Assembly (NCBI RefSeq): GCF_045679555.1 | Contig: NC_092094.1 | Location: 18,933,905-18,997,904, forward strand | From: Salvelinus alpinus | Lineage: Eukaryota > Chordata > Actinopteri > Salmoniformes > Salmonidae | Length of the DNA: 64,000 bases | Reading direction: 5' to 3' | Shown here: positions 174 to 61,455 of the stretch, one piece after another | Layout: each line of letters starts with the position of its first letter | Position numbering within the stretch: position 1 is the stretch's first letter | Program-made: the position numbers and the translations under genes | Notes under the pieces: model-generated | Told to the model about the DNA's origin: nothing | What the model saw: only the letters and a program-made list of their open reading frames with translations | The model's database searches: none

Positions 174-3100
174 CTGGCCCACAAAAGCAGAAAAGGCCTT
201 GGTGCTGTCCCGGCCGGCGGCTGCAGAGTGGTACAGGTTGACCCATTCCCTCAGCAAGTACTCTGCCTTCTCCCTCAGGCCCGGCGGGTCGTCGTACTCA
301 GACGCTTGGGAGATGCCAGAGTGCATCATAAAGTTGGGCCCTCCATGGGCCCGGTCGATCATGGCCTCGTAGTTAGAGCGGACCACATCCATCAGCTGAG
401 GAAGCCTGGGGGTCACAGGACACAAATCAGTTAGAAAACTATGAACATATGTATACCAACACCCCAATAAACTCCACATCTCCAAGGTGGTATTCATTAC
501 GCACCAAATGGAAGACAACAAACTGAAAATAGGGACCGCCTGAACTACAAAATACGCCACATGTAAAGTGTTAGTCCCATGTTTTATGAGCTGAAATTAA
601 AAAGATCCCACACATTTTCCATACGCACAACAAGCTTTTCAAAATGTGCCCAAATTTGTTTACATCACTGTTAGTGAGCATTTCTCCTGGTGTGGCATAT
701 CAAGAAGCTGATTAAATAGCACTCATTACACAGGTGCACCCTGTGCTGTGGACAATAAAACGCAACAAACGCGCAGTTTTGTCACACCACAATGCCACAG
801 ATATCTCAAGTTACTTAACTAGGCAAGTCAGTTAAGAAAAAATTATTATTTACAATGACGGCCTACCAAAAGGCCTCCTGCGGGACAGGGTCTGGGATTA
901 AAAATAAAAATATAGGACAAAAACACATCACAACGAGACAACACTACATAAAGAGACCTAAGACAACATAGCATGACAACAAAAAACATGATACAAACAT
1001 TGGGCAAAGGGCAAGAAGGTAAAGACAACATCACGCAAACAGCCACAACTGTCAATGATTGAGTCTTTGAATGCAGAGATTGAGCTATAACTGTCCAGTT
1101 TGAGTGTTTGTTGCAGCTCGTTCCAGTCGCTAGCTGCAGCGAACTGAGAAGACCAGCAACCCAGGGATGTGTGTGCTTTGGGGACCTTTAACAGAATGTG
1201 ACTGGCAGAACGGGTGTTGCATGTGGAGGATAAGGGCTGCAGTAGATATCTCAGATAAGGGGGAGTGAGGCCTAAGACAAATGGTGGAATTGGCATGCTG
1301 ACTGCAGGAATGTTTACCAGAGCTGTTGCCAGAGAATTTAATATGAAATTCTCTACCAAAAGCCGCCTCCGTCATTTTAGCGAATTTGGCCTTACATCCA
1401 ACCGTCATCACAACCGCAGACCATGTGTATGGCATCGTGTGGGCGAGCGGTTTGCGGATGTTAACATAGTGCCCTGTGGTTATGGTATGGGCAGGCATAA
1501 GCTACAGACAAACTCATTTTATTGATGGCAATTTGAATACACAAAAATACAGAGATGAGATCCTGAGGCCCATGTATTTTAAGGTATCTGTATTCCCAGG
1601 CATGTGAAATCCATAGATTAGGACATAAATGTATTTCAATTGACTGATTTCCTCATGTGAACTAACGCAGTAAAATCTTTGAAATTGTTGTGTTCATATT
1701 TTTGTTCAGTATATTAACACCCATTTTACAGTGTGTCTTAATGAACACAACCCAAAATCCTAATTAAATTAGGACAGAAAAGGACTCACCCCTCGGGTGC
1801 ATTGGCCCTGGAGTGTGCGCTGGTTCTCATCAGAGTCTCGATGGTGTGGAACAGGTCGGCCTCTGTGATGTGGCTCACACTGCGCTCATCCACCAGCAGC
1901 AGCTTTACCAGCTGCATGGCAAATGCCACTGCCATGTAGTGCAGACCGTTCTCCATAGACTAGACAAGAGAAACATACACACAGGGGTTTTAAGATAGTG
2001 ACAAAGGGACGGAATACACCACATGCCCATTATTCAGTTGTATAGAATCAAGATGGACTATTGACAGATGGCGTTGCTCGCACTAGAATATCTCAATGCT
2101 TAATAAAAGGTGTGTAGTGGTGTTTACCTGTGCCAAGTGCAGGTCGTACTGCTGCATGTTAACCAGGTGGTTTCTGATCAGCAGCTCCACAGCCTCCACG
2201 TTGTACTTGTACTCATCACGGCACTCAATCAGGCACCTGGAACAAGTAAAGATATCACAAATCTTAAAATAATGAGTGGATTTAGTTTCCCCTCTTCATT
2301 CGAGCAAAAAAACTTAACCCACCCATGGGAAGGTTATGGGGATACCAACCTGGTAATCTGTTTGTTGCACCATTGTGGTCCGTATGCCCGGCCGTCCTGG
2401 AGGGCTTTGAGCACCAGCAGGTGACACTCTCTGTACCGCAGGAACAGGTCAGCATCGGCACCACTGGTGGCATCGAGCAGACCCTCCACAGCCTAGAACA
2501 AGGAAGGAGAGATGAGGGACACAGGAAGAGATCTTTTCTACTGAGACCGGTGTATTCGTAAAGACAACTAAACAACTTTTCTATCCATGTATGTTTTCCT
2601 AGTGTTGTTGTGTGCGGAGTAGTCCCTGACCTTCTGCAGCAGGCCCAGAGCAGCAATGCCATCCCGGGAGTTCCTGGCCAGGGCCACTGCCTCCAGCAGA
2701 CTGCGCAGGGCCTGAGTCTGGGGGTTCATGGCCAGCGCTGGGGGGATGGCATGGAGGTGCTGCTCCAGGTCCGCCATGCACTTGTCATAGATCTGAGCCA
2801 CGTCGTCTGTGGCCCATGCCTGTTGCTGTAATAAACACAGGACAGAGACATTTATAAGGTACTTGAGTAAAGTTCTTAACCTTAAAATCAGGTTGGGTTA
2901 TGTCAAACACAGCAGAAAATGCAATTTCAGAGACTTCTCTCTTCCAGTGGTATGAGAGCCTACCTTCATGGGCTGGGCAAGGAATCCAGTGGGCTGAGAC
3001 AGGTCGTTGCTGGGTAGGAAGCCTGGAACATTCCTGGCAAACTCCTCGTACACCGCCAGCTGTTTGGGGTCTACTCCTCCAACCTGAGGTAGAAATTTTG

Positions 3101-4711
3101 CTCAGTAAATAGTCCAGATGCAAACGCAGGCTTTGATATCATTTGCATTGATAAAAAAAATAAACATTTACGTTCTCTCGACTATACCGATAATAGGAGA
3201 GAAAGTGGAGTGCTATAATCTAGGTGTGCTCACCTTGAGTCTGATCTGCTCTGGCATGCGCTCTGCCTGGTAGGTCAGCACCACAGGGTCGCAGTAGCGA
3301 CGACCCTCCTGACGGGCGTGCTTCCTCAGCTCAAACTCCTACAGGAGAGAAAGAGTAAAGGTACAAGTCAGCCATCATACAAAAGTTGTGGTCAGTATAC
3401 AGACAAGAGCAGCATTCCAGTGCCAATATAGTGATGAGCCCATAACCACTAACCGTGGCCAGTCTCTTGTCCATCTCTGGGCCAGCCTTCTCCACCGCAG
3501 TCTTCTGGATGAAGCAGCAGGCCAGCTCACAGTTGTCCTGGGCAACCCTAGCAGCAGCCTCCTCCATCATCTCTCTCTGCTGGGGGGTGGGGGCCTGGAG
3601 GGGGACAGGACCAAAGCTATACGCAAAAGGAACACTAATAAGACTTACTTTATATAGCGCTTTGTGGATGTGAATGAAGGCGACTGTACCCTGAGGGCTG
3701 CGGCAAAGCTGTTCTTCAGGTTGGTAGCGATACTCATGAGCAGGGGCTCCCGGCAGGTGATCATGGCCATGCCGGCGGTCAGGTTACGCATCATGTGATG
3801 GGCGGCCACACGCATGCGCGACTCCTCGGAGTCCAGGGCAAAGTCCTTCCTGACGATCTGCTCGCAGGTAGTCATGGCAATCTTGATGGAACGGTCCACT
3901 ACAGGGTGAACGAGCTCCTGCACGGCCCGCTCAATGGACTGTCTCACACACTGCTTCAGCTGAGGGTGGGCATGGAGCAAGGGGATCTGCAGGGAGAGAA
4001 GTGTCTTAGTACCACAACATCCCCAAATACCATGTGTAGGTCACAACCCAGGTGTTTGAGTGAGAGTGCTACTTACGTTGATGTTGATATTGATGTGAGG
4101 GGCTAGCCCTGCAAGGGCGTACACATTGATGTCATGATAGCTAAACTGTGGGGTAGGGGGCCCAGTAGCTGAGCAAGTGGTGGTTGCGGCAGGAGTGGAT
4201 GGCGCAGCTGCAAATGGAAGAAAGTCTCCTGTTGGTTACAAAACGCTATTTTGATTAAAATATAGCCCGAGAGCAGCAGCTCGATGAACAGAACAAATAA
4301 AAAAGCAATGGGTTAAATGTTCTTGGCAAAACAGTTGAACAAATGTAGGTTATTATTCTACATTGAAATGATCGTATTATGAGCTAAAATCATTCAACAA
4401 ATGACGAAATATTTCCATTTCAATATACAGGGGGACCAACATTACAATCAGATGAAACAAACATTGAAATACATTTGTTAGAAAGATATCCACACACCGA
4501 CAAGGGGCATCCCAATTTGAAAGTGCTGGATACCTGTGCTAACAACAGGGAGCATTTCTTCAGGGGGCTTGGCCTCTTTCTTTGGTGCAGAGAGCTGTTC
4601 CTCCAGGCTCTTCAACTTGTCTTTGTCCTTCAGAAGGGTGCCAGGCTTCAGGTCATTGATGTCCAATGATAAGTTCTTACACAGCACCTCAATCTCAAAC
4701 TTCAAGTTCAG
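174..4711 (-). CDS. cnot1: cnot1 coding exons 27-37: CNOT9-binding domain and connector
   Basis: Exons are 4534-4711, 4077-4207, 3690-3986, 3454-3594, 3234-3338, 2964-3083, 2631-2825, 2350-2492, 2128-2236, 1790-1959 and 174-405. Exons 28-31 encode the CNOT9-binding (DUF3819) helical domain, recognisable by [20 protein letters not shown] and [20 protein letters not shown]. Exons 32-37 encode the connector leading to the NOT1 C-terminal domain, ending at [11 protein letters not shown] with a phase-0 donor (GT at 172-173). Exon 33 has two possible acceptors six bases apart; the upstream one (exon end 2825) adds one Gln pair and is used here. The remaining C-terminal exons are outside the window. 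Confidence 0.95.
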
Positions 4712-7700
4712 CTGTAGTGAGAAAAGCACAATGACAAATCAGTACCTGAAAACTTTTAGAAACATGGTGTGACGTAGATGAAAGAGAAAGGGTTCCCTGA
4801 CCTTGAGATCATGCTCCGTATGCAGTTCTGCCAGAACATTCATGATGGCCATCGTCCAGGGATTCTGGGGTCGGAAAATCTGAGGATATTAAATGGCATT
4901 TAAGTCAACCTGCTCTTAAAAACATTGAAGACATAATAGCTAGGAAATGTGCCAATACACAAACCCAGTGCTAACAAGTCTAACAAATAAATTACCCAGA
5001 GAGCCATTGGTTCCTAAACAAAAACATATAGTATTTTTATTTTAAACAAAAATATTGCACACATACTCTGCACCTCTTTGCTTCTTCTGGAGGTGGGCTT
5101 TAATGCTGTCTATACTGGTCTACGTCATCTAGCTCTGACTGGCTCCCTGTCTGCTGCTGTAGGTACTCTGCCTGATGGAACTGGCTCACTTTCTTTTTCT
5201 GTGGATCAGTCTTAGGGTCCATTATTTCTCTTGACCATGCGACCTGCCCAAGAAAAACTAGTCTAGTAATAGGCAGGCCTTAGTCAGGGGAAATACCCCA
5301 GGCCCAAATATTGTCTGTTGGGTTGGCCGTCTCGCTATTCCTGTCTGCCGGGGATGGCTCAGTCTGTGCTGGGCTCAAGCTCACGGTCACTGAACAATTC
5401 GCACTGTCAATGTAAAAGTTTTCCCCTAGAAATTAAAATGTGAATCCAGATGCATATTGATATACTTAAAAATGTTGGTGAGAATGTGGCTTTACCACGC
5501 TACGTAAACTGGATTCCAGGACTTTGGCCACAAACGGGACCACATATAGTAGCTCCTGCTGCCCCTTGACATACGCTTCCAACAAGAGGGATTTCACCTC
5601 CAAATCCTAACAACAAAAAAAACAACAAAAAAACAGGTTAAACACAAAATACCATCTTGGGTCACAATTACAAACATTTGGTTATTTGTTGGGAGGAAAA
5701 CCAAATGGAAAGTTTAATACAGGCCAACATTTAAAAATGAGGAAATCTACTCACTGTGTACAGGATGGGCTTGTTTTTAGCCAGAGTGATCATACCAAGC
5801 CAGTGACCCAAATTCTTCAGTAGGGATCGATCAGAGAAGTTTGCAGCTGCCTTATCAGAGGTAAGGAGAACCTGTCACATGGAGCGAGAAAAGGTTAGCA
5901 ATTAAATATCTCTTTATCTGATAAGTTTACAAACTATTGTCCATAAAAGTTGATTAAGTGAATAACTCTTCACCTTGATGTTTCTGTAAGTTTCATTCAG
6001 TGCCATTTTGACAAACTCTGGGTTCTTCAGGGTGTCCAGGAAGTTGGAGTACAGGCTGTGGAAGTTGGGCTCAATGCTGACCCTCTTCATGACCAGATAC
6101 TGAGAGACCCAGGGCATGAACTCCTCTTTGACAGTCTCCTTTAACTCCTCAACCTTGAGAGTTAGATGAAAGTACACATTTATTTTGGCCAAAAACAAGA
6201 TTCTCAATATAGCATGCTTTTGCAACACCAGGTAGTAAATAAAAATATATCTATGACTGACCTTCTGTGTCATGTTGGATTGTGACAGGTTATTGAAGAT
6301 GAAAGCAATTTTCTCTTGAACATTTTCTGGGGGTTCCACAATCCTCTCGGTTTGGTCTGTTGCTACTAGAAGTGTGTCGATGTTTGTGGTGTTGATGGAG
6401 GGCTGAAATTACAATATACATTCAAAACAAAATGCTGCTTTTCAATATTAGAGGGTCTTCTTGGGAAACCTCAATTCTTAGTGAGCGCATATTTGCCAAA
6501 CAACCACACTACTGGAGTATTTCTTCAGAGACATAGCTTCACCAACTCATTATTTTAGGCTTGTCACACATTTGTTAAAAATGAAAATATTTCCTGGTGT
6601 TTACGTTCCTTTAGTCTTTGTAAACCAAAATGAGTATATCAAATGTGAAAACCAGAGAGCGTTCCTCATAGAACAGTTGTTGCTATTGACACAAACTATG
6701 GCAACGCAGGAAAACTCTGATGCATTGGTTTGCTAGAGTCATTTTACATGACCAGAGAAAAACATCGGCATATATATGGTGCAAGTGACTCCCTGATGTT
6801 TCCCCAGGTACTCACCGGCACATCCTTCTTGAAGCTGCCAGGGGTAGGCCGGGTGATGGTAGTGGTTTTGGCGACAGTGGTGGTGGTGGTAGCTGTGGTG
6901 ACCAGTGTGCTGGGCTGTCCAGGCTGGGGGGCTTTGGGAGGCTGAGACTGAGCTTGAGCCAACGCCAGGCTTCCTGGGGTGGTGATGGATCCCTGCATCT
7001 TCACCGGAGGGTCCCGTGACTGTTGGCCATACTCGATATACTGCACGCACAGGATATTCGAAAGTGCCAGAGCGAGAGACTTATTTATCATGAAGTAGGA
7101 TCCGCCCCTCTGGCTAAGGTGTTACGGATATCAGTATAAAAACAAGGAAGATACATGTACAGATGAAGAATGACCGATTGTGTCACAAATATACAGGAAA
7201 TCCAATTACCTCTTGTAAATGATGGGGGAACTGCAGAAAGTGGCCGATTGAGGCCAAGTGCTGACAATATTGGGGATAGTCCTTCAGTCTAGAGAGGGAA
7301 AGATCAAATTAGCCCTACAGCAGTCACAGATCATTTGAATCATACATGCGCAACATTCTTTAGCAACATGCAAATATTCAGTGTGGAATTCCATCAAACA
7401 TCTGAAGACAGATAATAGTCCATACCTATTTTTGAATCTATCTAGAGCAGCGATTCCAAAGTAATACATTTTGGACCCAAATGGTTTCCTCAAGGCTTCG
7501 AGTACATATCGGAGGGCCAGTCCGAGGGCCATGTAGGTGACAAGGCCTTTCTCAATGATCCCCCCGAACAGGCAGGCGGTGATGTGTAGCTCCTTGTCAG
7601 GGTACTGGGGGAAGAAGCGGTACTCCTCAAACAAGTTCCTCAGCATACAGTTAAAGACCTCACGCTCTCGCTTGATGGTGGAGTCCTTGAACCTCTGCAG

Positions 7701-13700: not shown

Positions 13701-16700
13701 AAAAACAATTAAGGTAAGAGATATCAATTTTGAGACATGACATGTAGTATTTTCATATTTTAGTGTACACTGTTCATATTCATGCGAAGTTCCTGTATAT
13801 ATATATAAAAAAAAAGAAAGAAGACTTCTCACAAAAACAAGAGTATCTCTGAAATGTCACCGGAGCACTGAGCTTTTTAGTTTCAAAACATTTACATTTA
13901 TTTCAGCTCGGGTCATGTAATTTTGCTATTTGCGACCCGCAGAAACAACTTGGAAGACGAGGACCATAAAATATAAAATTCTCAAACGTGTAGGCAATAA
14001 AGCTGCACCGCTCCTACAGAGCTTGATGCTTATTATCGGATGTATTAGGTTACAAAATCTGACTTTTTGGATATGTTAACGATATGTTAGGGAAAGACCA
14101 GGCTGAACAATTCAGAACATGAAGAATCAATTGTCTTGGTAAAATGTATTTTATAACATAAGAAAGTGAAATGCCATCAACAAAATGCGTTTTAACCCAC
14201 TGGGCAGAATGGGTGAACACCATACCTTCACAAAACTATACCACATTTCCTGAAGAAAACCCACGGATCCCTCCCTACCTACCTTCAAGTCCTGGGCCAC
14301 ATCCAGGATGCGGGACAGCTTGGCCTGGTCGTACTGCTCCCCTCTCATGTACCACTCAGCCATAGAGTGCATAATCAGCTGACGGATAGAGGGGGACTGG
14401 CCCTGTCCATGCCAGGCGTAGTGTAAGATGATAGCAGAGTTGGGGTGGTTGCCCAGGAAGATTGGCATGAGGGTGGAGATGAGCTCGTGGCGCAAGGTGT
14501 GCCAGGAGGTGCTTATCTGCAGCAGTGCCAGCACCAGCATGTCAGGACAGTGCTTGATGGGAAAGCTGAAGAGCTGCTTTACCTGCTCGTACTGGCCCAC
14601 CTCAGAGAGGCGCAGGAGGCTTTCCACCAGGTCCAGGCTCTTCCTGTGAGGCGAAAATCACAAATAAAGTATATCAAATGGCATGACATTGTTCTAATAA
14701 TTAATGTAAAGGAGTACCTGGTATTGTGGAGGTCAGGAGAACTGTTTTACGTACCAGGTGGCTATCTCTCGGTTATCGTCCTCAGGTGGGGCCTTCAGTA
14801 TGTCGATTGCTACGGTGTGGCAGGGGTAGTCAGCAAAGCAGAACACATCTGGGCTCATGAGGGAGTGCTGGATGAATGACAGCTGGTAGAGAGTGATAAT
14901 GGTTAAGAGGGCTGAGGAGAGGAGTTCATTGATGTGAAAGGAGTGTGTTACCTATGGAAATAAGACCAAAGTGTTGTGTCTTGTCACTTACATAAACCTG
15001 ACCCATTCTCCTTACCTGTCCTTCAGCATGCTTCCAGGGCCGGTAGATTAGGTCGACAGGGAACACCTCCATGCCCAGGCCCCTCTGGATCCCATACACC
15101 ACCATCTGCAGTCCCTTGCTGTCCCGGATTATGAAGCCAGGGTGATCGAGCTCGTAGGTCACCTCTTTAAAGTTCAGATTGGGGTTCTAAAATATAAAAA
15201 GGACATTTCCTGTACAAACTGCAAAACATGAATGGCCAACTGAAGGGGAATAACATGTAATGCCACTATAACTTACAACTTCTTTGACCACATCAATTAG
15301 AACTTCTACATTCCAGGTGTGCGCCTGAGATCCATCACTTTTGTCCTTTCCATCGCTCCAAATGCCACTGCCCGGAGCCGAGATGGACTGAGAAATAAAA
15401 AATAAAAACAATAGTATACTTAGAGAGCAATGCCATTTTTTTTAACAGATCTTCAGTAAGTTACCATCAGGTCAACCCTCACCTGTAGGGGGATTCCATC
15501 AGACAAGCCAGAGTGGGTGCGAGCCATCATCCCCAGGACCCTGGCCACCTGGCTGGCAGTAACCTCTCGCACCCCATACTGTAGGATTATGTTGCGGCAT
15601 TCATCGAGACTTAGAATGAAAGACAGACAATACATTAACAGTGGTCATGCATGACGTCAAAAACTACTGAATTAATTACATTTGTAATGGGCATTTCAGT
15701 TGCTAAATAACAGTCACCTTGCACAAAAGCCATAGCCAACTTCCTGCATGAACTCTGCGAGAGAACTCTCCATCATGGTCTTGGCTAACTCTCCCGAGTC
15801 TGGCAGAATCCTGTCCATCAGAATGTCCCGTTTTTCAGGGTATAGCAGTGGTGCGAGCACCACAGGGCAGCGCTCCTGCGGGAAATCTGAACCAGAATAT
15901 TTAATTGATGGGGCAACATGTACAAAACGACCAGATTGCTGTGAATGAAGGATTCAGAGTTTGTGTTACTTCTGGAAATAAACATTTCCTTTCAAGTAGT
16001 ACGTCTATGCCCCTCACCTCTACACAGTGTCTTGAGGAACGCTTCAATCTGCTCTTGTCCGACCCCGCTGGCTCCCTTCTGGCCAAACAGAAGATGGGAG
16101 AGGAGCAGGTGCAGGACCTCTATGGCAATATCTTGGAAGCCACCTTCCTGGTTTCCTCCAAGGTCCGCGTCCACGTACGAGCGGAGGAGGTCCGGGAGCC
16201 TTTGTTTGACGAACTGCGCGGCTAAAGACAAAATGGGGAAATATTTCAAATAAATACTTTTAAGGATGAAACGGTTACCGGTTTCACGATAAACCACTGT
16301 AAAATACCCGACGACTAGTATTACTGTTTTACATTTTAAATCACCATTAAAACCATGTTTGATTACCACGGTTTGAAAAATTCACAGTAAATACTGTTCT
16401 GCATCAACCAAAGTTAGCAACAGTCTGACGCAGGCACAGCATGCAACATGGGTTTTGTTTTGTGTGAAAACATGGCAGAAGGCAGTGACAGCGCTCGGGA
16501 GATTTTTCAGCCTTCTAAGAGGACCAAATCTGAAGTGTGGTAGTATTTTGGGTTTTACAAGAGTGCTGAGGGAAGCTTAATCGAAGATGGTCACCCTGTC
16601 TGCAGAACATGCAAGGGACTGCAGATGGTGGTGTATGGGAGCCAGAGGGGCCTGGGCATGGAGGTGTTCCCTGTTGACCTAATCTACCGGCCCTGGAAGC

Positions 16701-19700
16701 ATGCTGAAGGACAGGTAAGGAGGAGAATGGGTCAGGTTAGGAGGAGATTGGGCCAGGTTTATGTAAATGACAAGACACTCAACACTTTGGTCTTATTTCC
16801 GTAGGTAACAAACTCCTTCATTCACATCAATGAACTCCTCTCCTCAGCCCTCTTGACCATTATCGCTCTCTTCCAGCTGTCATTCATCCAGCACTCCCTC
16901 ATGAGCCCAGATGTGTTCTGCTTTGCTGACTACCCCTGCCACACCGTAGCAATCGACATACTGAAGGCCCCACCTGAAGACGATAACCGAGAGATAGCCA
17001 CCTGGTACGTAAAACAGTTCTCCGGACCTACACAATACCAGGTACTCCTTTACATTAACACTTCAAATCTCTTGAGGCATCTTCAGGACCACCACCCACT
17101 ACTTTATAGCGAATGTAAGCCAACTTTTAGCTCAATGCATGATGTGGGGGAAAACGACATGGTTTGTCTGTCTAACTTGCTAATAGCTTGTCAATAATGT
17201 AAACTGAAGCTTTCAGTATTACCTACTCTTGTAAAAACACTACACGTTGTTCTGCTGCTGTATGCGTCATGTGTCTGCAGACTATTCGCCCATTGCACAC
17301 GATAACATGTTATGTAGTTTAGTAACCCAACCAACATATTTTGTTCATTTAAAATCCGGCAGTTGTCGACTTGGTTGTAAAGGTGTTCCAACAGGAGAAA
17401 CACTATAGACTCCTATACGGTAGTGTCCCACCTGGCCAACATCCGGTGAAATGGCAGAGCGTCAAATTCAAATTACTATAAATATTAAACTTTCATGAAA
17501 TCACAAGTGCAATACATCAAAATAAAGCTTAACTTGTTGTTAATCCAGCCAAGGTGTCAGATTTCAAAAAGGCTTTACGGCGAAAGCAAACCATGCGATT
17601 ATCTGAGGACAGCGTTCAGCACACAAATGCATAAAAAACATTTTCAACCAGGGAGTTGCGACACGAAAGTCAGAAATAGCGATATAATATATGCCTTACC
17701 TTTGAAGATCTTCTTCTGTTGGTACTCCAAAAGGTCTGTTACATTACAAATGGTCCTTTTTTTCGATAAATTCCTTCTTTATATCCATAAAAACTCAGTT
17801 TAGCTGGCGCGCTTCAGTCAATAATCCACTCGGTTTCCCTCCGTCAAAATGCATACAAAATGAATCCCAAACGTTACCAATAAACTTCTCCAAACAAGTC
17901 AATCAACGTTTATAATCAATCCTTAGGTACCCTAATACGCAAATAAACAATTAAATTTAAGACAGAGAATCGTTATTGTCTTTACCGGAGATAAACAAAA
18001 AGAACGCGCTCTCGGCCATGCGCTTGGAAACACTACAGACAAAATGGGAACCATTTAGAAAAACTACAACTTCTCTCATTTTCCCAAAAAAACAGCCTGA
18101 AACTCTTTCTAAAGACTGTTGACAGACATTGAAATCAGTTTTTTAATGGTTTGTCCTCGGGGTTTCACCTGCCATTTGAGTTCTGTTATACTCAGACATT
18201 ATTTTAACAGTTTTAGAAACTTTAGAGTGTTTTCTATCCAAATCCAATTATATGCATATCCTAGTTTCTGGGCCTGAGTAGCAGGCAGTTTACTTTGGGC
18301 ACGCTTTTCATCCGGACGTCAAAATACCGCCCCCTATGCCAAAGAAGTTAAGACTCATTTGTATTTATGTAAATTGCGCATGGGGTCATTGCATATACTC
18401 AAATGCAACACAGAAGATACACAGTCTTAACTTCTTATGGCTGGGGGGCAGTATTGAGTAGCTTGGATGAATAAGGTGCCCAGAGTAAACTGGCTGCTAC
18501 TCAGGCCCAGAAGCTAAGATATGCATATTATTAGTAGATTTGGATAGAAAACACTGACATATCTAAATCTGTCTGAACGATGTCTGTGAGTATAACAGAA
18601 CTCATATGGCAGGCAGAAACCAGAGGAAAAAATCCAACCAGGAAGTTGGAAATCTGAGGTTTGTAGTTTTTCAAGTCTTTGCCTATTCAAGAAACCGTGT
18701 AAAATTTGGTACGATTGCACTTCCTAAGGCTTCCACTAGATGTCAACAGTCTTTAGAACCTTGTTTCAGGCTTCTACTGTGAAGGGGGAGAGAATAAGAG
18801 CTGATTGAATAAGAGGTCTGGCAGAACGCCATGAGCTCAGTCTCGCCCGTGAGAGTTAGCTGCGTTCCAATGTAAACAGATTTTTGGATATAAATATGAA
18901 CTTTATTGAACAAAACATACATGTATTGTGTAACATGAAGTCCTATGAGTGTCATCTGATGAAGATCATCAAAGGTTAGTGAATAATTTTATCTCCATTT
19001 CTGCTTTTTGTGACTCTTTCTGTGACTAAGCGCTGACCTAACATAATCGCATGGTATGCTTTCGTCGTAAAGCCTTTTTAAAACCGGACACTGGTGGGAT
19101 TAACAACAAGTTCATCTTTAAAATGGTGTATAATACTTGTATGTTTGAGGAATTTTAATTATGAGATTTGTTTTTTGAATTTGGCGCCTTGCACTTTCAC
19201 TGGCTGTTGTCATATCGATCCTGTTAATGGGATTTCAGCCATAAGAAGTGAATAATAATAATAATAATAACGGCAATAATAATACTACTGCATTTACTAT
19301 TCCCTTGTTTACGTAGTGGGCGTGCAGCAGGCAAACCCAGTGATGCACCTGGTCCCTCATCTAGTTGTGACAGACAATCGAGCAAGCATTTATTAAGTCA
19401 GGGTGCTTATGCACCCACATCAAAAAATGCTCAAGACCTCACTCCAGTCTTTTCATATTACATTGCAAAGGACATGGTGCCATTTCAAATTTTTGAGACC
19501 TGGCTTTCTGAGGCTGATAAAGGTTGGCGTGCCTCACCACAAAGTGAGTGCTGCTAATTTTGTTGTTTGTTTATTTGATTTGCTTAATTTAGGATGTGTT
19601 CATTTAAACCTGCACTAGGGAAGCTTACTTCATGGCCACATGGTGCCATCTTTAATGTTAATGTTATTATTTTTCAAGTTTATGCACACAAAAAGTACAC

Positions 19701-22012
19701 AGTGCTGCTAATTTTATTTGTTGGTTTTCAATATAAAACTTGGTGAAATGATTTAAGTGTGTATGTATCAGTACTTTTGAACATTTCCAGCACATTTTAA
19801 CAATACCGCGATAATACTGATAACCGTGATAATTTTGGTCACTATAATTGTGATATGAAATTTTCATATAGTTTCATTTCTAGACTTCTATAACAGATGT
19901 CAAGCTGCTTGCTTAGAGTGTACGGCTTCCTCCTGATTCAGCTCACAGAGGCTTGAACACAGGACCTCCGCCTTTTTAGCACACGTGACTGGCCCTTGCG
20001 AAGCATCTTTTTAACAGCTGTGCCATGCGAAAAGCGAACTATTTTGCAGCCCATGTAGGGACACCTCAGGCTAAGGAGTGTTTCACACATTTCCATGTGC
20101 TACACTTGGACACCTTGATAACAGAATAACTCATGTGACCCCCCCATACAGATAAAACATTGCATGTTTTCAAATCAGCAGGTATAGTCAAATTATTAAA
20201 TATAAAACTGAGTTTACCAAAACCACGAAGGTCTGCGTTGCACGAATTCAGCAAAGCAAGGCCAAATATAACCTTAGGGGGAAAAAAATAAAGATTTATG
20301 TAGACTCAAATTGTTTGGCATATTATTTTTAAACACCACAATAAAAACCACCATCTGATAACATACATTTCCATATTACTTTACTTACTTCTTGAACCTT
20401 GCTTAGCTTGAGAACTTTACTCAACTGAGTAAACAAGTGGGTGGAAGGCTTCAAACTCTGAAAATGATAAAGTTTTAGAAAACATTACAGTTATTCTGAT
20501 GCAGACACTAATATTGGCACGAGGTCTAATGTATTTTATAATATTTTATGAATGGCAAAATTATTTTACAAAGATAGGTGAGAAAATAAGCACATATCTC
20601 CTACCTTCTGGTAGTGCAAGGGATTGTCGATTGTGTAGCAGAGTGTTGAAATAAAATTTGGCTTTGAAATCAGTGAAACACACTCCTGGATCAGAAACTG
20701 TGTCTTGGTCAAGTGGGCAAACGAAGGTAAAAGGGAGAAGAGGGTACATAACAGAACAGGTTAAGGACAAAATAGGAAAGCAGAGTCACTTTCTAAAATA
20801 ATAAAGGCAAGATAGACAATACCAATGACGATCAGGAAATTTAAAGAAACCCTTAGTCCTCATGGCTAAAATCTGTTTAGCAACTGGTGTATTGAGTATT
20901 ACTAATCAGAAATTACCTGATGGAAATCTTTGCCACTGCTTTTACCATCGCCACTGAAATCCACATGGGAGAAAAGACAGCGTAATAAATGCCTGTCTGC
21001 CTCAGGGCCGTGACGATTCACAATCTGTTGGGACAGAACACATTCAACAAAAGAACAAATAACAGGTTAGCCGTCACAGCCACAATATAATTGTCAGACC
21101 TAATGCAATTCCAAATCCAGGATTTTTTCTGCATAGAAACATCTTGTTTATTCAGGCCACCTATATCCAAACATTGTTTTTAGTGAAATACATTTTTCGG
21201 GGTGGAAAAATATTTTCAGTGTAAACTTTAACTACTAAAATCAGATATAAAGTACGTAAAAAAAGACGATTTATTGTTAAATATGAAAACTATCACTAAA
21301 ATAAAAGCTAGACAAAAACTATGAATTCAGGAGTATTGATTATGTTACAATGATTGATCATAAGAACAAATAAGGAAATTAGTTTAAACTGCAAAATGTT
21401 ATCTCGGCTACATAGCTAAATGTCTAGAATTAAGGGAAACTGGCTTTAAAACAAAATCTCCGTCACTAAGATGGGGGGCTTCAATTTTTTTTTATAACCA
21501 AGACCCTGACCAAATTAAGCCATGCCGACATTGCTACACACCTTGCCACACCCACCAATTATGGCCATTTTTATACAGAAAAATCCTATGAACACTAGAA
21601 TCATATTGGCTTTACAATCATTTTGTGATAATCCCCAAGCTGACAAGGTAAAAATTGGTCGTTCAGGCCCCTGAACAAGGCAGTTAACTGTTCCTAGGCC
21701 GTCATTGAAAATAAGAATTTGTTCTTTACTGACTTGCCTAGTTAAATAAAAGGTCAAATAAAAAAATAAATTTGAATGCATGTACATTTCAAAATCTACT
21801 TAATTATAGCCCTTCAAACGTCTGAAAAATGTGTGTACTGCTTTTTAGTGGCAAAACTACAAAAAGACAGAAAAAGACAATTTGTGAGCCTAATACCACA
21901 TGCTACTCACATGTTGTATTTCCTGCTGGCTGGCTCTGTAGTTTTTCTTAGTTAAATTGTCCACCAAGTAGCTGATTTGAGACAAAGCCAGCGAGAGCGA
22001 GTCAAGATTCAT
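174..22012 (-). CDS. cnot1: CCR4-NOT transcription complex subunit 1, 3' truncated by the window edge
   Basis: CNOT1 is the large HEAT-repeat scaffold of the CCR4-NOT complex. It docks the CNOT6/7/8 deadenylases, CNOT2/3, CNOT9 and CNOT10/11, and drives mRNA poly(A) shortening and translational repression, mainly in the cytoplasm. Thirty-seven coding exons are resolved, from the ATG at 22,010-22,012 to an exon ending at 174. Together they give 5,655 nt (1,885 codons) with no stop or frame break. The N-terminus [20 protein letters not shown] matches the vertebrate protein. The human protein is about 2,376 residues, so roughly the last 490 (most of the NOT1 superfamily homology domain) lie left of position 1. 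Exon lists are in the block entries. The start is fixed by homology, with a 5'UTR exon upstream. Several introns carry transposons. Identification is very secure; single exon edges could be off by a few bases. Confidence 0.97.
541..1713 (+). mobile_element. Tc1-like deletion derivative (HTH-only type), copy 1, with nested repeat
   Basis: The left end is degenerate (AACTACAAAATACGCCACAT); the right end is TTCATATTTTTGTTCAGTAT. Internal text at 1,285-1,400 matches the transposase helix-turn-helix region of the other copies (GGCATGCTGACTGCAGGAAT). A separate repeat at about 812-1,275 interrupts it. It lies in the cnot1 intron between exons 37 and 36. No usable transposase remains. Confidence 0.7.
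812..1275 (-). repeat. nested interspersed repeat inside the Tc1 derivative
   Basis: The segment begins with AACTAGGCAAGTCAGTTAAG (the reverse of a salmonid retroposon tail) and ends near GAGTGAGGCCTAAG, after which Tc1 text resumes. It contains the recognisable block GTTGCAGCTCGTTCCAGTCG common in salmonid repeats. A retroposon 3' fragment in reverse orientation is the likely identity. Confidence 0.6.
4802..7712 (-). CDS. cnot1: cnot1 coding exons 19-26: TTP-binding and CNOT6/7/8-binding MIF4G region
   Basis: Exons are 7426-7712, 7210-7288, 6816-7040, 6262-6402, 5974-6153, 5755-5871, 5496-5606 and 4802-4879. Exons 19-20 complete the TTP-binding MIF4G-like fold ([20 protein letters not shown] onward). 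Exon 21 is a flexible linker with a Thr run ([18 protein letters not shown]). Exons 22-26 encode the canonical MIF4G domain that holds the CAF1-type deadenylase ([15 protein letters not shown], then [17 protein letters not shown]). Most of these exons are whole-codon units (phase 0). The stretch 4,880-5,495 between exons 26 and 25 is intron with nothing recognised. Confidence 0.95.
7802..8909. mobile_element. degenerate hAT-like element in cnot1 intron 18
   Basis: The left end, AGGGATGTCACAATACCAGA, and the reverse complement of the right end, AGTGTTGCACGGTACACTGA, resemble the terminal sequences of fish hAT elements (AGKGTTGYACGRTA-type). Partial repeats of the left end recur near 7,855-7,885. 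No open transposase frame is visible. It fills most of the intron between cnot1 exons at 7,712 and 8,935. Confidence 0.55.
8935..12289 (-). CDS. cnot1: cnot1 coding exons 13-18: central linker and start of the TTP-binding region
   Basis: Exons are 12167-12289, 11898-12049, 10053-10224, 9680-9881, 9452-9589 and 8935-9059. They encode the end of the N-terminal HEAT block and then a low-complexity linker rich in Ser, Pro, Gly and Gln (for example [20 protein letters not shown]). The linker leads into [20 protein letters not shown], which opens the MIF4G-like domain that binds tristetraprolin in mammals. The donor of exon 17 is placed after GCCT so that the split Ser codon (T plus CT) gives KMASDLSQVW. 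The intron between 10,225 and 11,897 contains a Tc1-like element on the opposite strand. Confidence 0.93.
10256..11721 (+). mobile_element. Tc1-like transposon, full length, in cnot1 intron 14
   Basis: The ends are CCAAATAAAGAAACGT on the left and the reverse complement of CTCAGCCAAAAAAGAAACGT on the right. It is inserted antisense to cnot1 between the exons at 10,224 and 11,898. Sub-terminal TGTGGAAC motifs near 10,410 and 11,597 form inner repeats, in the style of IR/DR elements. Its transposase is broken; see the next entry. Confidence 0.8.
10527..11516 (+). pseudogene. Tc1 family transposase, frameshifted
   Basis: The frame from 10,527 to 11,222 gives 231 residues: an N-terminal paired-like helix-turn-helix ([20 protein letters not shown], then [19 protein letters not shown]) and the first catalytic Asp in [11 protein letters not shown] small deletion near 11,208 shifts the frame. 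The remainder continues in other frames with the second Asp in LQHDNATSH and the Glu in LNPIEHAWD, followed by another deletion near 11,362. All three catalytic positions survive in pieces, but no single product can be made. Confidence 0.85.
12637..13491 (+). mobile_element. Tc1-like deletion derivative, copy 2, with nested repeat
   Basis: The termini are ATACTGAACAAAAATATAAA on the left and the reverse complement of that text on the right (TTTATATTTTTGCTCAGTAT). Transposase HTH-like text is present at about 13,125-13,330. A different repeat is inserted at about 12,890-13,085. It lies in the cnot1 intron between exons 13 and 12. Confidence 0.8.
12890..13085 (+). repeat. salmonid interspersed repeat nested in Tc1 derivative copy 2
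   Basis: It starts TTACATTTACATTTAAGTCA and runs through GCAGACGCTCTTATCCAGAG and a G-run, then Tc1 text resumes. The block resembles the body of a widespread salmonid repeat; I cannot name the family securely. No coding potential. Confidence 0.6.
14283..22012 (-). CDS. cnot1: cnot1 coding exons 1-12: N-terminal HEAT region
   Basis: Exons in transcript order are 21911-22012, 20917-21024, 20605-20703, 20389-20457, 20218-20272, 16018-16221, 15718-15886, 15483-15609, 15277-15387, 15016-15186, 14755-14882 and 14283-14643. They encode about the first 530 residues, the all-helical HEAT scaffold whose N-terminal part binds CNOT10/CNOT11 in other vertebrates (family knowledge). Landmarks are GHWGL-free helical text such as [18 protein letters not shown] in exon 6 and [15 protein letters not shown] in exon 9. 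Intron 5 (16,222-20,217) is unusually long and holds a hAT-like element that carries an inverted copy of exons 10 (part) and 11. All junctions keep phase. Confidence 0.95.
14701..15120 (-). repeat. cnot1: source arm of the inverted cnot1 duplication
   Basis: This is the native cnot1 segment that is duplicated at 16,611-17,058. In the cnot1 transcript it is the sense arm; the intronic copy is antisense. The arms are separated by 15,121-16,610, which contains the rest of exon 10 and exons 9, 8, 7 and 6. Confidence 0.9.
16472..17197 (+). pseudogene. BED-type zinc finger ORF split by a cnot1 fragment
   Basis: Starting at ATG 16,472 the frame reads [12 protein letters not shown], then TKSEVW, a TAG at 16,541-16,543 and [25 protein letters not shown]. 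This is the first half of a BED finger with its CxxC. The frame then continues directly into cnot1 residues [20 protein letters not shown]. It crosses the former cnot1 intron (16,715-16,876, one stop at 16,802-16,804), re-enters cnot1 residues [20 protein letters not shown], and emerges into [20 protein letters not shown], the His half of the BED finger. All parts share one frame. The stop at codon 24 (probably a mutated Lys or Arg codon) means no full product from this ATG. Whether it is transcribed is unknown. Confidence 0.75.
16611..17058 (+). repeat. captured inverted copy of cnot1 exons 10 (part) and 11 with their intron
   Basis: The plus strand here matches the minus strand of 14,701-15,120. 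It covers the 3' part of exon 10 (from GCAAGGGACTGCAG), the whole intervening intron, all of exon 11, and about 54 nt of the following intron. Exonic parts differ at about 3 of 232 positions by eye. Intronic parts differ more and include a roughly 21-nt internal tandem duplication near 16,735. Because intron sequence is present, this is a DNA-level copy, not a retrocopy. Splice donor GTAAGG and acceptor CTCTTCCAG are preserved. Confidence 0.92.
17420..18351. mobile_element. TTAA-ended element nested in the hAT element
   Basis: The right end is CCCCCTATGCCAAAGAAGTTAA, shared in form with the right end of the element at 48,914-50,730 (CCCCCTATAGTTGCAAGAAG then TTAA). The body contains blocks also seen in that element (GTGTCAGATTTCAAAAAG, ACCTTTGAAGATCTTCTTC). 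The left edge is approximate. It is non-coding and probably a non-autonomous piggyBac-like element. Confidence 0.5.
18431..19248 (+). mobile_element. TTAA-flanked non-autonomous element nested in the hAT element
   Basis: It starts CTTCTTATGGCTG directly after TTAA (18,427-18,430) and ends with the exact reverse complement CAGCCATAAGAAG at 19,236-19,248. It is followed by TGAA, a possible mutated TTAA. It shares these ends with the much larger element at 48,365-51,622, in opposite orientation. No open transposase frame. Confidence 0.65.
19254..19270 (+). repeat. (AAT)n microsatellite
   Basis: A short run of AAT units directly follows the right end of the nested TTAA-flanked element. Confidence 0.85.
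21650..21772 (+). repeat. 5'-truncated SINE tail in cnot1 intron 1 of the coding part
   Basis: The segment contains only the 3' half of the salmonid SINE: CCCCTGAACAAGGCAGTTAA, GTTCCTAGGCCGTCATTG and the terminal TTGCCTAGTTAAATAAAAGG. The tRNA-like head is missing, as expected for incomplete reverse transcription. It sits between coding exons 2 and 1 of cnot1. Confidence 0.8.
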
Positions 22013-29345: not shown

Positions 29346-57349
<28,004 letters not shown>

Positions 57350-60772: not shown

Positions 60773-61030
60773 CCATCGTGAATCGTTGAGTTTAGACGCG
60801 AGTTACCCTCCTATGCCTGGAGAATAACTGAGTGGTCCCCCCCATGGTGTTGTGGTTTAACCTCAGACACGGGCTGAGTTGTGGCTCCAGATGTTTGAGG
60901 GCTGTGTTTGGCCTAGCCTGGGGCAATGGTGGTAGGGGGCATCCATGAAGTCACCGAGAGTGGAGCGCAGGTTAGGGGGGAGGAGAGGACCGGCCGACAG
61001 GCTGAAAACAAACAGCTTCTGCTCAGTGCC

Positions 61031-61455
61031 GAGAGGAGGGCATGGGAGCAGTGCCGAGAGGAGAGCCTGGGAGCAGTGCCGAGAGGAGAGCCTGGGAGCA
61101 GTGCCGAGAGGAGAGCCTGGGAGCAGTGCCGAGAGGAGAGCCTGGGAGCAGTGCCGAGAGGAGAGCCTGGGAGCAGTGCCGAGAGGAGAGCCTGGGAGCA
61201 GTGCCGAGAGGAGAGCCTGGGAGCAGTGCCGAGAGGAGAGCCTGGGAGCAGTGCCGAGAGGAGAGCCTGGGAGCAGTGCCGAGAGGAGAGCCTGGGAGCA
61301 GTGCCGAGAGGAGAGCCTGGGAGCAGTGCCGAGAGGAGAGCCTGGGAGCAGTGCCGAGAGGAGAGCCTGGGAGCAGTGCCGAGAGGAGAGCCTGGGAGCA
61401 GTGCCGAGAGGAGAGCCTGGGAGCAGTGCCGAGAGGAGAGCCTGGGAGCAGCTCT
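61031..61455 (+). repeat. 25-bp minisatellite, 17 copies
   Basis: The unit GAGAGGAGAGCCTGGGAGCA plus GTGCC recurs head to tail with starts at 61,031, 61,056, 61,081 and so on to 61,431. The first copy has two substitutions; the inner copies look identical and the last is cut. Because 25 is not a multiple of three and the unit lacks stops, several frames on both strands stay open through it. Confidence 0.97.

Follow-up and report, generated by a model that had tools for sequence, protein, structure and literature searches.

In a 64,000-nucleotide (nt) stretch of the Salvelinus alpinus genome (RefSeq assembly GCF_045679555.1, contig NC_092094.1, positions 18,933,905 to 18,997,904; hereafter, the window), the gene cnot1 carries an inverted copy of part of itself inside a hAT-type DNA transposon that lies in cnot1 intron 5. 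The 448-nt copy splits the BED zinc-finger exon of the element exactly where its sister copies have a run of adenines (the A-run), and no second chimera was found when the 2.37-Gb genome was searched with the insert as query. We propose that repair by template switching at the A-run of the resident element, without transposition, probably made the insert. The locus is a real finding of an already described kind, probably a DNA-repair scar and not a gene-carrying transposon.

The inverted cnot1 copy and its source

Comparison of the window with itself by BLAST aligned positions 16611-17058 with 14701-15119 on opposite strands over 448 columns, which comprised 419 aligned bases with 11 substitutions and 29 gap columns; the longest identical run was 105 nt. 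The main features are as follows.

16261-19882, plus strand: hAT element, an internally deleted (non-autonomous) copy in cnot1 intron 5, with terminal inverted repeats (TIRs) TAAGGATGAAACGGTTACC... and ...GTTTCATTTCTA
16472-16610, plus strand: left part of the BED exon, through the CxxC cysteines, with an in-frame stop (TCG to TAG) at 16541-16543
16611-17058, plus strand (cnot1-sense reads on the plus strand): captured inverted cnot1 copy, 448 nt, from window self-BLAST
16611-16614, plus strand: left junction microhomology GCAA, 4 nt, common to the sister BED text and cnot1
17057-17058, plus strand: right junction microhomology AA, 2 nt
17059-17114, plus strand: right (His) half of the BED exon, to about the former splice donor
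14701-15119, minus strand: source of the captured copy (part of exon 10, intron 10, exon 11 and the start of intron 11)
15016-15186, minus strand: cnot1 exon 10, copied in part
about 14755-14882, minus strand: cnot1 exon 11, within the source

The insert contains 104 nt of exon 10, the whole of intron 10 (133 nt in the source), the whole of exon 11 and about 54 nt of intron 11, with exon/intron boundaries adjusted by hand by one to three bases. An earlier note on this DNA, made from the sequence alone, had described it as the antisense of exons 10-11 and the intron between them, which self-BLAST confirmed apart from the additional intron 11 segment; the distance of about 1.5 kb that the note gave agrees with the 1491 nt measured between the arms. 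By eye, 24 (3 + 21) of the 29 extra nucleotides in the copy fall in an imperfect tandem duplication within the intron. Introns were copied, and the template was therefore DNA.

Several other origins of the sequence were rejected. Chance similarity is ruled out by 448 columns at 91% (E = 0.0), and a retrocopy by the presence of an intron in the copy. Searched alone against the genome, the insert gave three candidates, all of which were scored: itself, the source (91% counting gaps) and the second cnot1 copy, an ohnolog located on contig C15, which at 78% is ruled out as donor. A protein search returned four BED relatives among five candidates, none with the insert. The BED reading frame continues into the cnot1 frame of the insert, and we claim no fusion product because a stop codon lies upstream.

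The host gene is on the minus strand of the window, where three translated exons used as one query matched solved CNOT1 chains (best E = 9.6e-144). Exons were numbered by eye from the coding exon starting MNLDSL (about 22011), so that the copied exons are 10 and 11; exons 2-5 were recognised from the CNOT1 sequence. That the insert divides a zinc finger, as the earlier note had proposed, is borne out by Pfam: the two BED halves joined over eight X residues scored 30.7 bits against zf-BED (cut-off 20.6), while the left half alone matched no family and the right half alone reached 14.1 bits.

Junctions, sister copies and relative age

We compared the junctions with 39 sister BED copies from 38 loci (18 + 20), counting insertions and deletions (indels) over a 211-nt stretch. 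The uncaptured relatives that the earlier note had suggested looking for are plentiful: in 31 of the 39 copies the BED halves stand 0-66 nt apart, the remaining eight have deletions or altered right halves with no recognisable right half, and none holds the insert. The copies of the chimera elsewhere, for which the same note had recommended a search, did not turn up in the genome.

Sister copies read TGCAAAAACAAAATTGCTGCGAAAGGGGGCAACACTTC or a near variant with an A-run of variable length, whereas the window reads TGCAA, then the copy, then AACACTTC, with about 25 nt of BED sequence lost relative to the sisters. The left microhomology reported earlier as GCAAG does exist, shortened to GCAA, because the sisters mostly read TGCAAAA or TGCAACA there and the fifth base is that of cnot1. 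Microhomology of 4 + 2 nt was equalled by 59 of 20,000 random junction pairs. The homeology that extends upstream of the left junction (TCACCCTG...) was matched at 50 of 3,000 random window positions and 79 of 1,165 source positions and is not decisive.

Indels in the family concentrate at the same place. An 11-12-nt zone at the A-run holds 40 of the 87 indels counted, and 33 of the 39 copies have at least one there. Fourteen copies have an indel of at least 8 nt that starts in this zone, and two more, L024 and L041, have alignments that end there; the deletions of L013, L044 and L039 start in the A-run (those of L013 and L044 look like one event), and L043 has a 27-nt deletion that begins a single base ahead of the zone. 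Outside the zone there are seven indels of at least 8 nt in six copies (L019, L038, L042, L045, L048 twice, and L053), and several sister alignments end early on the right side. A- and T-rich insertions of 12 to 40 nt are present at the BED A-run in L019 (position 4130), L021 (position 4050), L046 and L049.

Divergence was used to order the landing of the element and the capture. The element differs from the sister consensus at 67 of 1,283 sites (5.2%; 3.7-8.0% by segment), and the sister means by segment lie at 4.1-4.7%. When the 11 differences between insert and source, matched by hand, were polarised with the ohnolog, six fell on the copy, three on the source and two were undecided; the three source-side changes fall in the source's intron, at sites where copy and ohnolog are the same. 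The insert's own branch therefore carries 6 to 8 changes in 419 (about 1.4-1.9%), and its divergence differs from that of the element (Fisher test, P = 0.0036 with 8 changes, 0.0063 with 9). The insert being less diverged than the element, capture probably followed a long residence, and an insert younger than its element is supported, not proven, by these counts. The genome duplication that produced the ohnolog dates to 88-100 million years ago. Combined with the 18% divergence of the ohnolog intron, this gives a crude clock on which landing would fall at about 50-58 and capture at about 14-21 million years ago. There is good support for the earlier proposal of a local capture that followed landing and used an inverted template close by: the insert resembles the local gene most, no second chimera was found in the genome searched, sisters without the interruption exist, and the element is probably the older.

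The host element and its family

Ends and structure were compared in 18 sister loci picked from genome matches (L009-L024, L027 and L028). The left end corresponds to window position 16259-16261 in 12 of the 14 loci that have one and the right end to 19882-19883 in nine of 12, so that the hAT-like element placed earlier at 16262-19884 is indeed there, with its ends corrected to 16261 and 19882. Sister TIRs mostly begin TAGGGATGAAACGGTTACC. Among the eight sister loci with both ends, 8-bp target-site duplications are perfect in three (L011, L012 and L014), match at 7 of 8 positions in two (L018 and L024) and show no in-register match in three (L009, L020 and L022). Further features of the element are listed here.

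16255-16262, plus strand: candidate left target-site duplication TACTTTTA, overlapping the element end and matching the right one at 6 of 8 positions
19883-19890, plus strand: candidate right target-site duplication GACTTCTA
19320-19546 (start approximate), plus strand: remnant of a later transposase exon, ending at the subfamily's internal deletion (19546/19547)
about 17418-18348, minus strand: nested TIR element, not seen here in any sister copy read
about 18425-19247, plus strand: second nested TIR element, likewise not seen here in any sister copy read

Dimer_Tnp_hAT was matched in sister L010 (68.9 bits), a region that the window copy lacks; Pfam gave no family for the later-exon remnant of the window copy or for an open stretch of sister L012. 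By these domain matches the family is one of hAT transposases, with a BED finger and a predicted C-terminal dimerisation region. Most of the transposase is missing from the window copy, which is contiguous at 19546/19547 like L011, L018, L020, L021, L022 and L023, whereas L010 has extra sequence there; the window copy therefore belongs to an internally deleted subfamily. Its in-frame BED stop is common to L010 and L016, which may point to a subfamily that spread in trans after the finger was already broken. An exact scan of viral contigs for the TIR pattern gave no match.

Both nested TIR elements lie in the former transposase intron, and further relatives of them occur elsewhere in the window (self-matches among 18150-18631, 48366-48778 and 51208-51622). 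A dispersed repeat of about 210 bp (19896-20104) adjoins the right end of the hAT element; 40 of its 362 candidates were scored, and its other scored matches are 68-82% alike. The hAT element and this repeat are both absent from the ohnologous intron on C15. The transposase region of L010 (positions 2537-3493) includes a repeat array with a unit, judged by eye, of about 22 residues (66 bp), and a second open stretch further along that locus (5331-6362) is repetitive with a short period. Elsewhere in the window, 61024-61451 is a tandem array of a 25-bp unit (17.1 copies at 99%) that is open in several frames.

Origin, predicted consequences and known systems

On the account that we favour, a non-autonomous hAT copy would have landed in cnot1 intron 5 and decayed there. 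A later break or stalled fork at the A-run in the BED exon would have left a strand ending in TGCAA. This strand could have paired with the GCAA that lies 1.5 kb away, inverted, in the same gene's exon 10; copying would then have run for about 440 nt, through exon 10, intron 10 and exon 11 into intron 11, before the strand rejoined the element at AA, with the loss of about 25 nt of BED sequence. The outcome would be a single-copy 'Pack-hAT' formed by gap filling. The sequence anatomy, the genome search that found no second copy and the position of a junction at the A-run are direct observations; that there was a break or a stalled fork, which way copying ran and which enzymes acted are what we infer. 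The earlier note's implication of a gene-capturing, mobile Pack-type transposon is not supported: the element belongs to an internally deleted subfamily, and its insert has junctions that resemble template-switch repair at an A-run.

The same anatomy would be expected for any intronic target, and it is conceivable, if unlikely, that the element was a bystander: a generic inverted templated insertion, of the type of microhomology-mediated break-induced replication or fork stalling and template switching (MMBIR/FoSTeS), would have struck the intron and fallen in the element by chance. Microhomologies of 4 and 2 nt are ordinary for such events and A-runs occur elsewhere too, but the junction falls at the family's own indel hotspot, where 11-12 of 211 nt take nearly half of the indels and where the alignments of L024 and L041 end and the deletions of L013, L044 and L039 begin, with that of L043 starting one base earlier. 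We think it improbable to a greater degree that capture was linked to excision, with a hAT transposase cutting the element out and the gap being refilled from neighbouring exons (abortive gap repair). The dimerisation domain in L010 is a transposase remnant, which implies that activity once existed in the family, yet the break is internal and not at the ends, little of the element was lost, and the insert is probably younger than the element.

An assembly artefact, that is, a collapsed or mis-joined inverted copy, has very little to recommend it beyond the fact that inverted repeats are hard to assemble. The arms differ by substitutions as well as gaps, the window contains no N, and the junctions are clean with sister-like flanks; the changes that the source intron acquired after copying also speak against a recent artefact. 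Least credible of all is a capture of cnot1 at some other site, followed by a jump of the element to a place next to its source. Cut-and-paste movement leaves no donor copy, and nothing else speaks for this idea; no other copy was found in the genome searched, chance landing within 2 kb of the source in 2.37 Gb would be very unlikely, and the probable youth of the insert again argues the other way.

Several observations weigh against template switching at the A-run of a long-resident element. Many indels in the A-run zone are short slippage in a homopolymer, and the sister copies were selected for an intact left half, which biases the hotspot count and hides events that start further left. The target-site duplication of the window copy matches at only six of eight positions. 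Divergence along the element is uneven (8.0% in segment 19256-19546, 3.7% in another), and part of it may reflect subfamily differences in the mixed consensus. Few changes underlie the age comparison: when every one of the 13 differences in a three-way alignment whose gaps are placed otherwise (19 less 6 in the flanks) is assigned to the copy, the Fisher P rises to 0.084. Gene conversion between the two arms could also give the insert a false appearance of youth, and the age order was judged within one genome, from sister copies and the ohnolog.

Because cnot1 intron 5 carries the antisense of the gene's own exons 10-11, the pre-mRNA is predicted to fold into a hairpin of about 400 bp. In the minimum-energy fold of 2,451 nt, pairing with the copy arm takes up 408 of the 419 bases in the source arm; the predicted duplex energy is -832.7 kcal/mol, against -119 to -225 kcal/mol in 19 of 20 random pairs of window stretches and -587 in the twentieth. 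The predicted paired arm spans the exon 10 donor and both exon 11 splice sites, with a longest perfect run of 105 bp. Such a case indicates that a gene can gain, inside an intron, a long antisense version of its own exons, and this should have a bearing on splicing and RNA editing. It is a speculative extension of the folding model, and a doubtful one, that the captured copy is RNA-active and alters the splicing, editing or circular-RNA output of cnot1, with the ohnolog tolerating the loss, and that the family's A-run is a recurrent entry point for inserts.

Going by titles and abstract openings, the papers listed for vertebrate hAT gene capture, salmonid hAT elements and cnot1 introns do not treat this locus. 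The earlier note had considered gene capture much less described in vertebrates than in plants; the case is less unusual than that, since transposition-independent single-copy Pack-TIRs have been described in animals. From 100 animal genomes, Tan et al. 2021 (PMC8277862) report 370 Pack-TIRs, of which 208 belong to hAT, and for the single-copy ones a cis bias (parental copy within 15 kb in 160 of 281), short microhomologies (median 2 bp), a small internal gap and a capture that followed insertion after a long wait; the authors favour transposition-independent gap filling. Their definition takes 100-5000 bp between two element parts that reach the terminal 10 bp, here 448 nt in 16261-19882, both ends of which align with sister ends, and a parent that is the unique best hit with at least 90% identity and a length ratio of 80-120%. 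Here 408 of 419 aligned bases are identical (91% counting gaps, measured by BLAST, not BLAT), 448/419 is 107%, and the next match is the ohnolog at 78%. The definition also asks for no transposon in the parent's flanking 100 bp, a copy that is not intronless and an outgroup that shows the order; beside the source there is no repeat match among the window self-matches listed (a self-comparison, with no repeat library), and intron 10 is in the copy. As to the order, the divergence counts favour a capture later than the insertion, and the ohnolog has no such element at all. As far as testable from sequence, the locus appears to match the single-copy Pack-TIRs.

Plant Pack-MULE and Pack-TYPE elements (PMC8903248) are alike in holding a gene fragment inside a TIR element; they differ in that their chimeras are amplified by transposition, and no second copy of the cnot1 chimera was found in its own genome. 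Turmoil-1 of C. elegans (PMC2572040) is likewise an animal DNA transposon with host coding sequence, which it carries in its terminal repeats, whereas the cnot1 insert is internal and single-copy. MMBIR/FoSTeS insertions and short-range template switches (PMC8421209, PMC7954356) share the inverted templated copy, junction microhomology and poly(dA:dT) at the switch, and in apes poly(dA:dT) tracts show enrichment where the template is switched (PMC7954356). Among the gold-standard ape events the median is 12 nt and the longest reaches 128 (PMC7954356), in contrast to the roughly 440 nt copied here from 1.5 kb away, and small inverted triplications (148/160/148 bp with a 30-bp spacer; PMC13334657) are also unlike the cnot1 insert. 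The closest resemblance, to the single-copy Pack-TIRs of PMC8277862, extends to the TIR element, the internal host fragment, the single copy, the nearby parent, the microhomology and the small gap. The cnot1 locus may differ from them in that the source is the element's own host gene, inverted, so that the gene carries the antisense of its own exons, and it differs in that the break is at an A-run where the hAT family often has indels. It is a vertebrate example of good resolution, since a single genome shows the source, the target, sisters without the capture, the ohnolog and the relative ages, and it supports the view that most 'gene captures' by animal TIR elements are repair scars and not acts of transposition.
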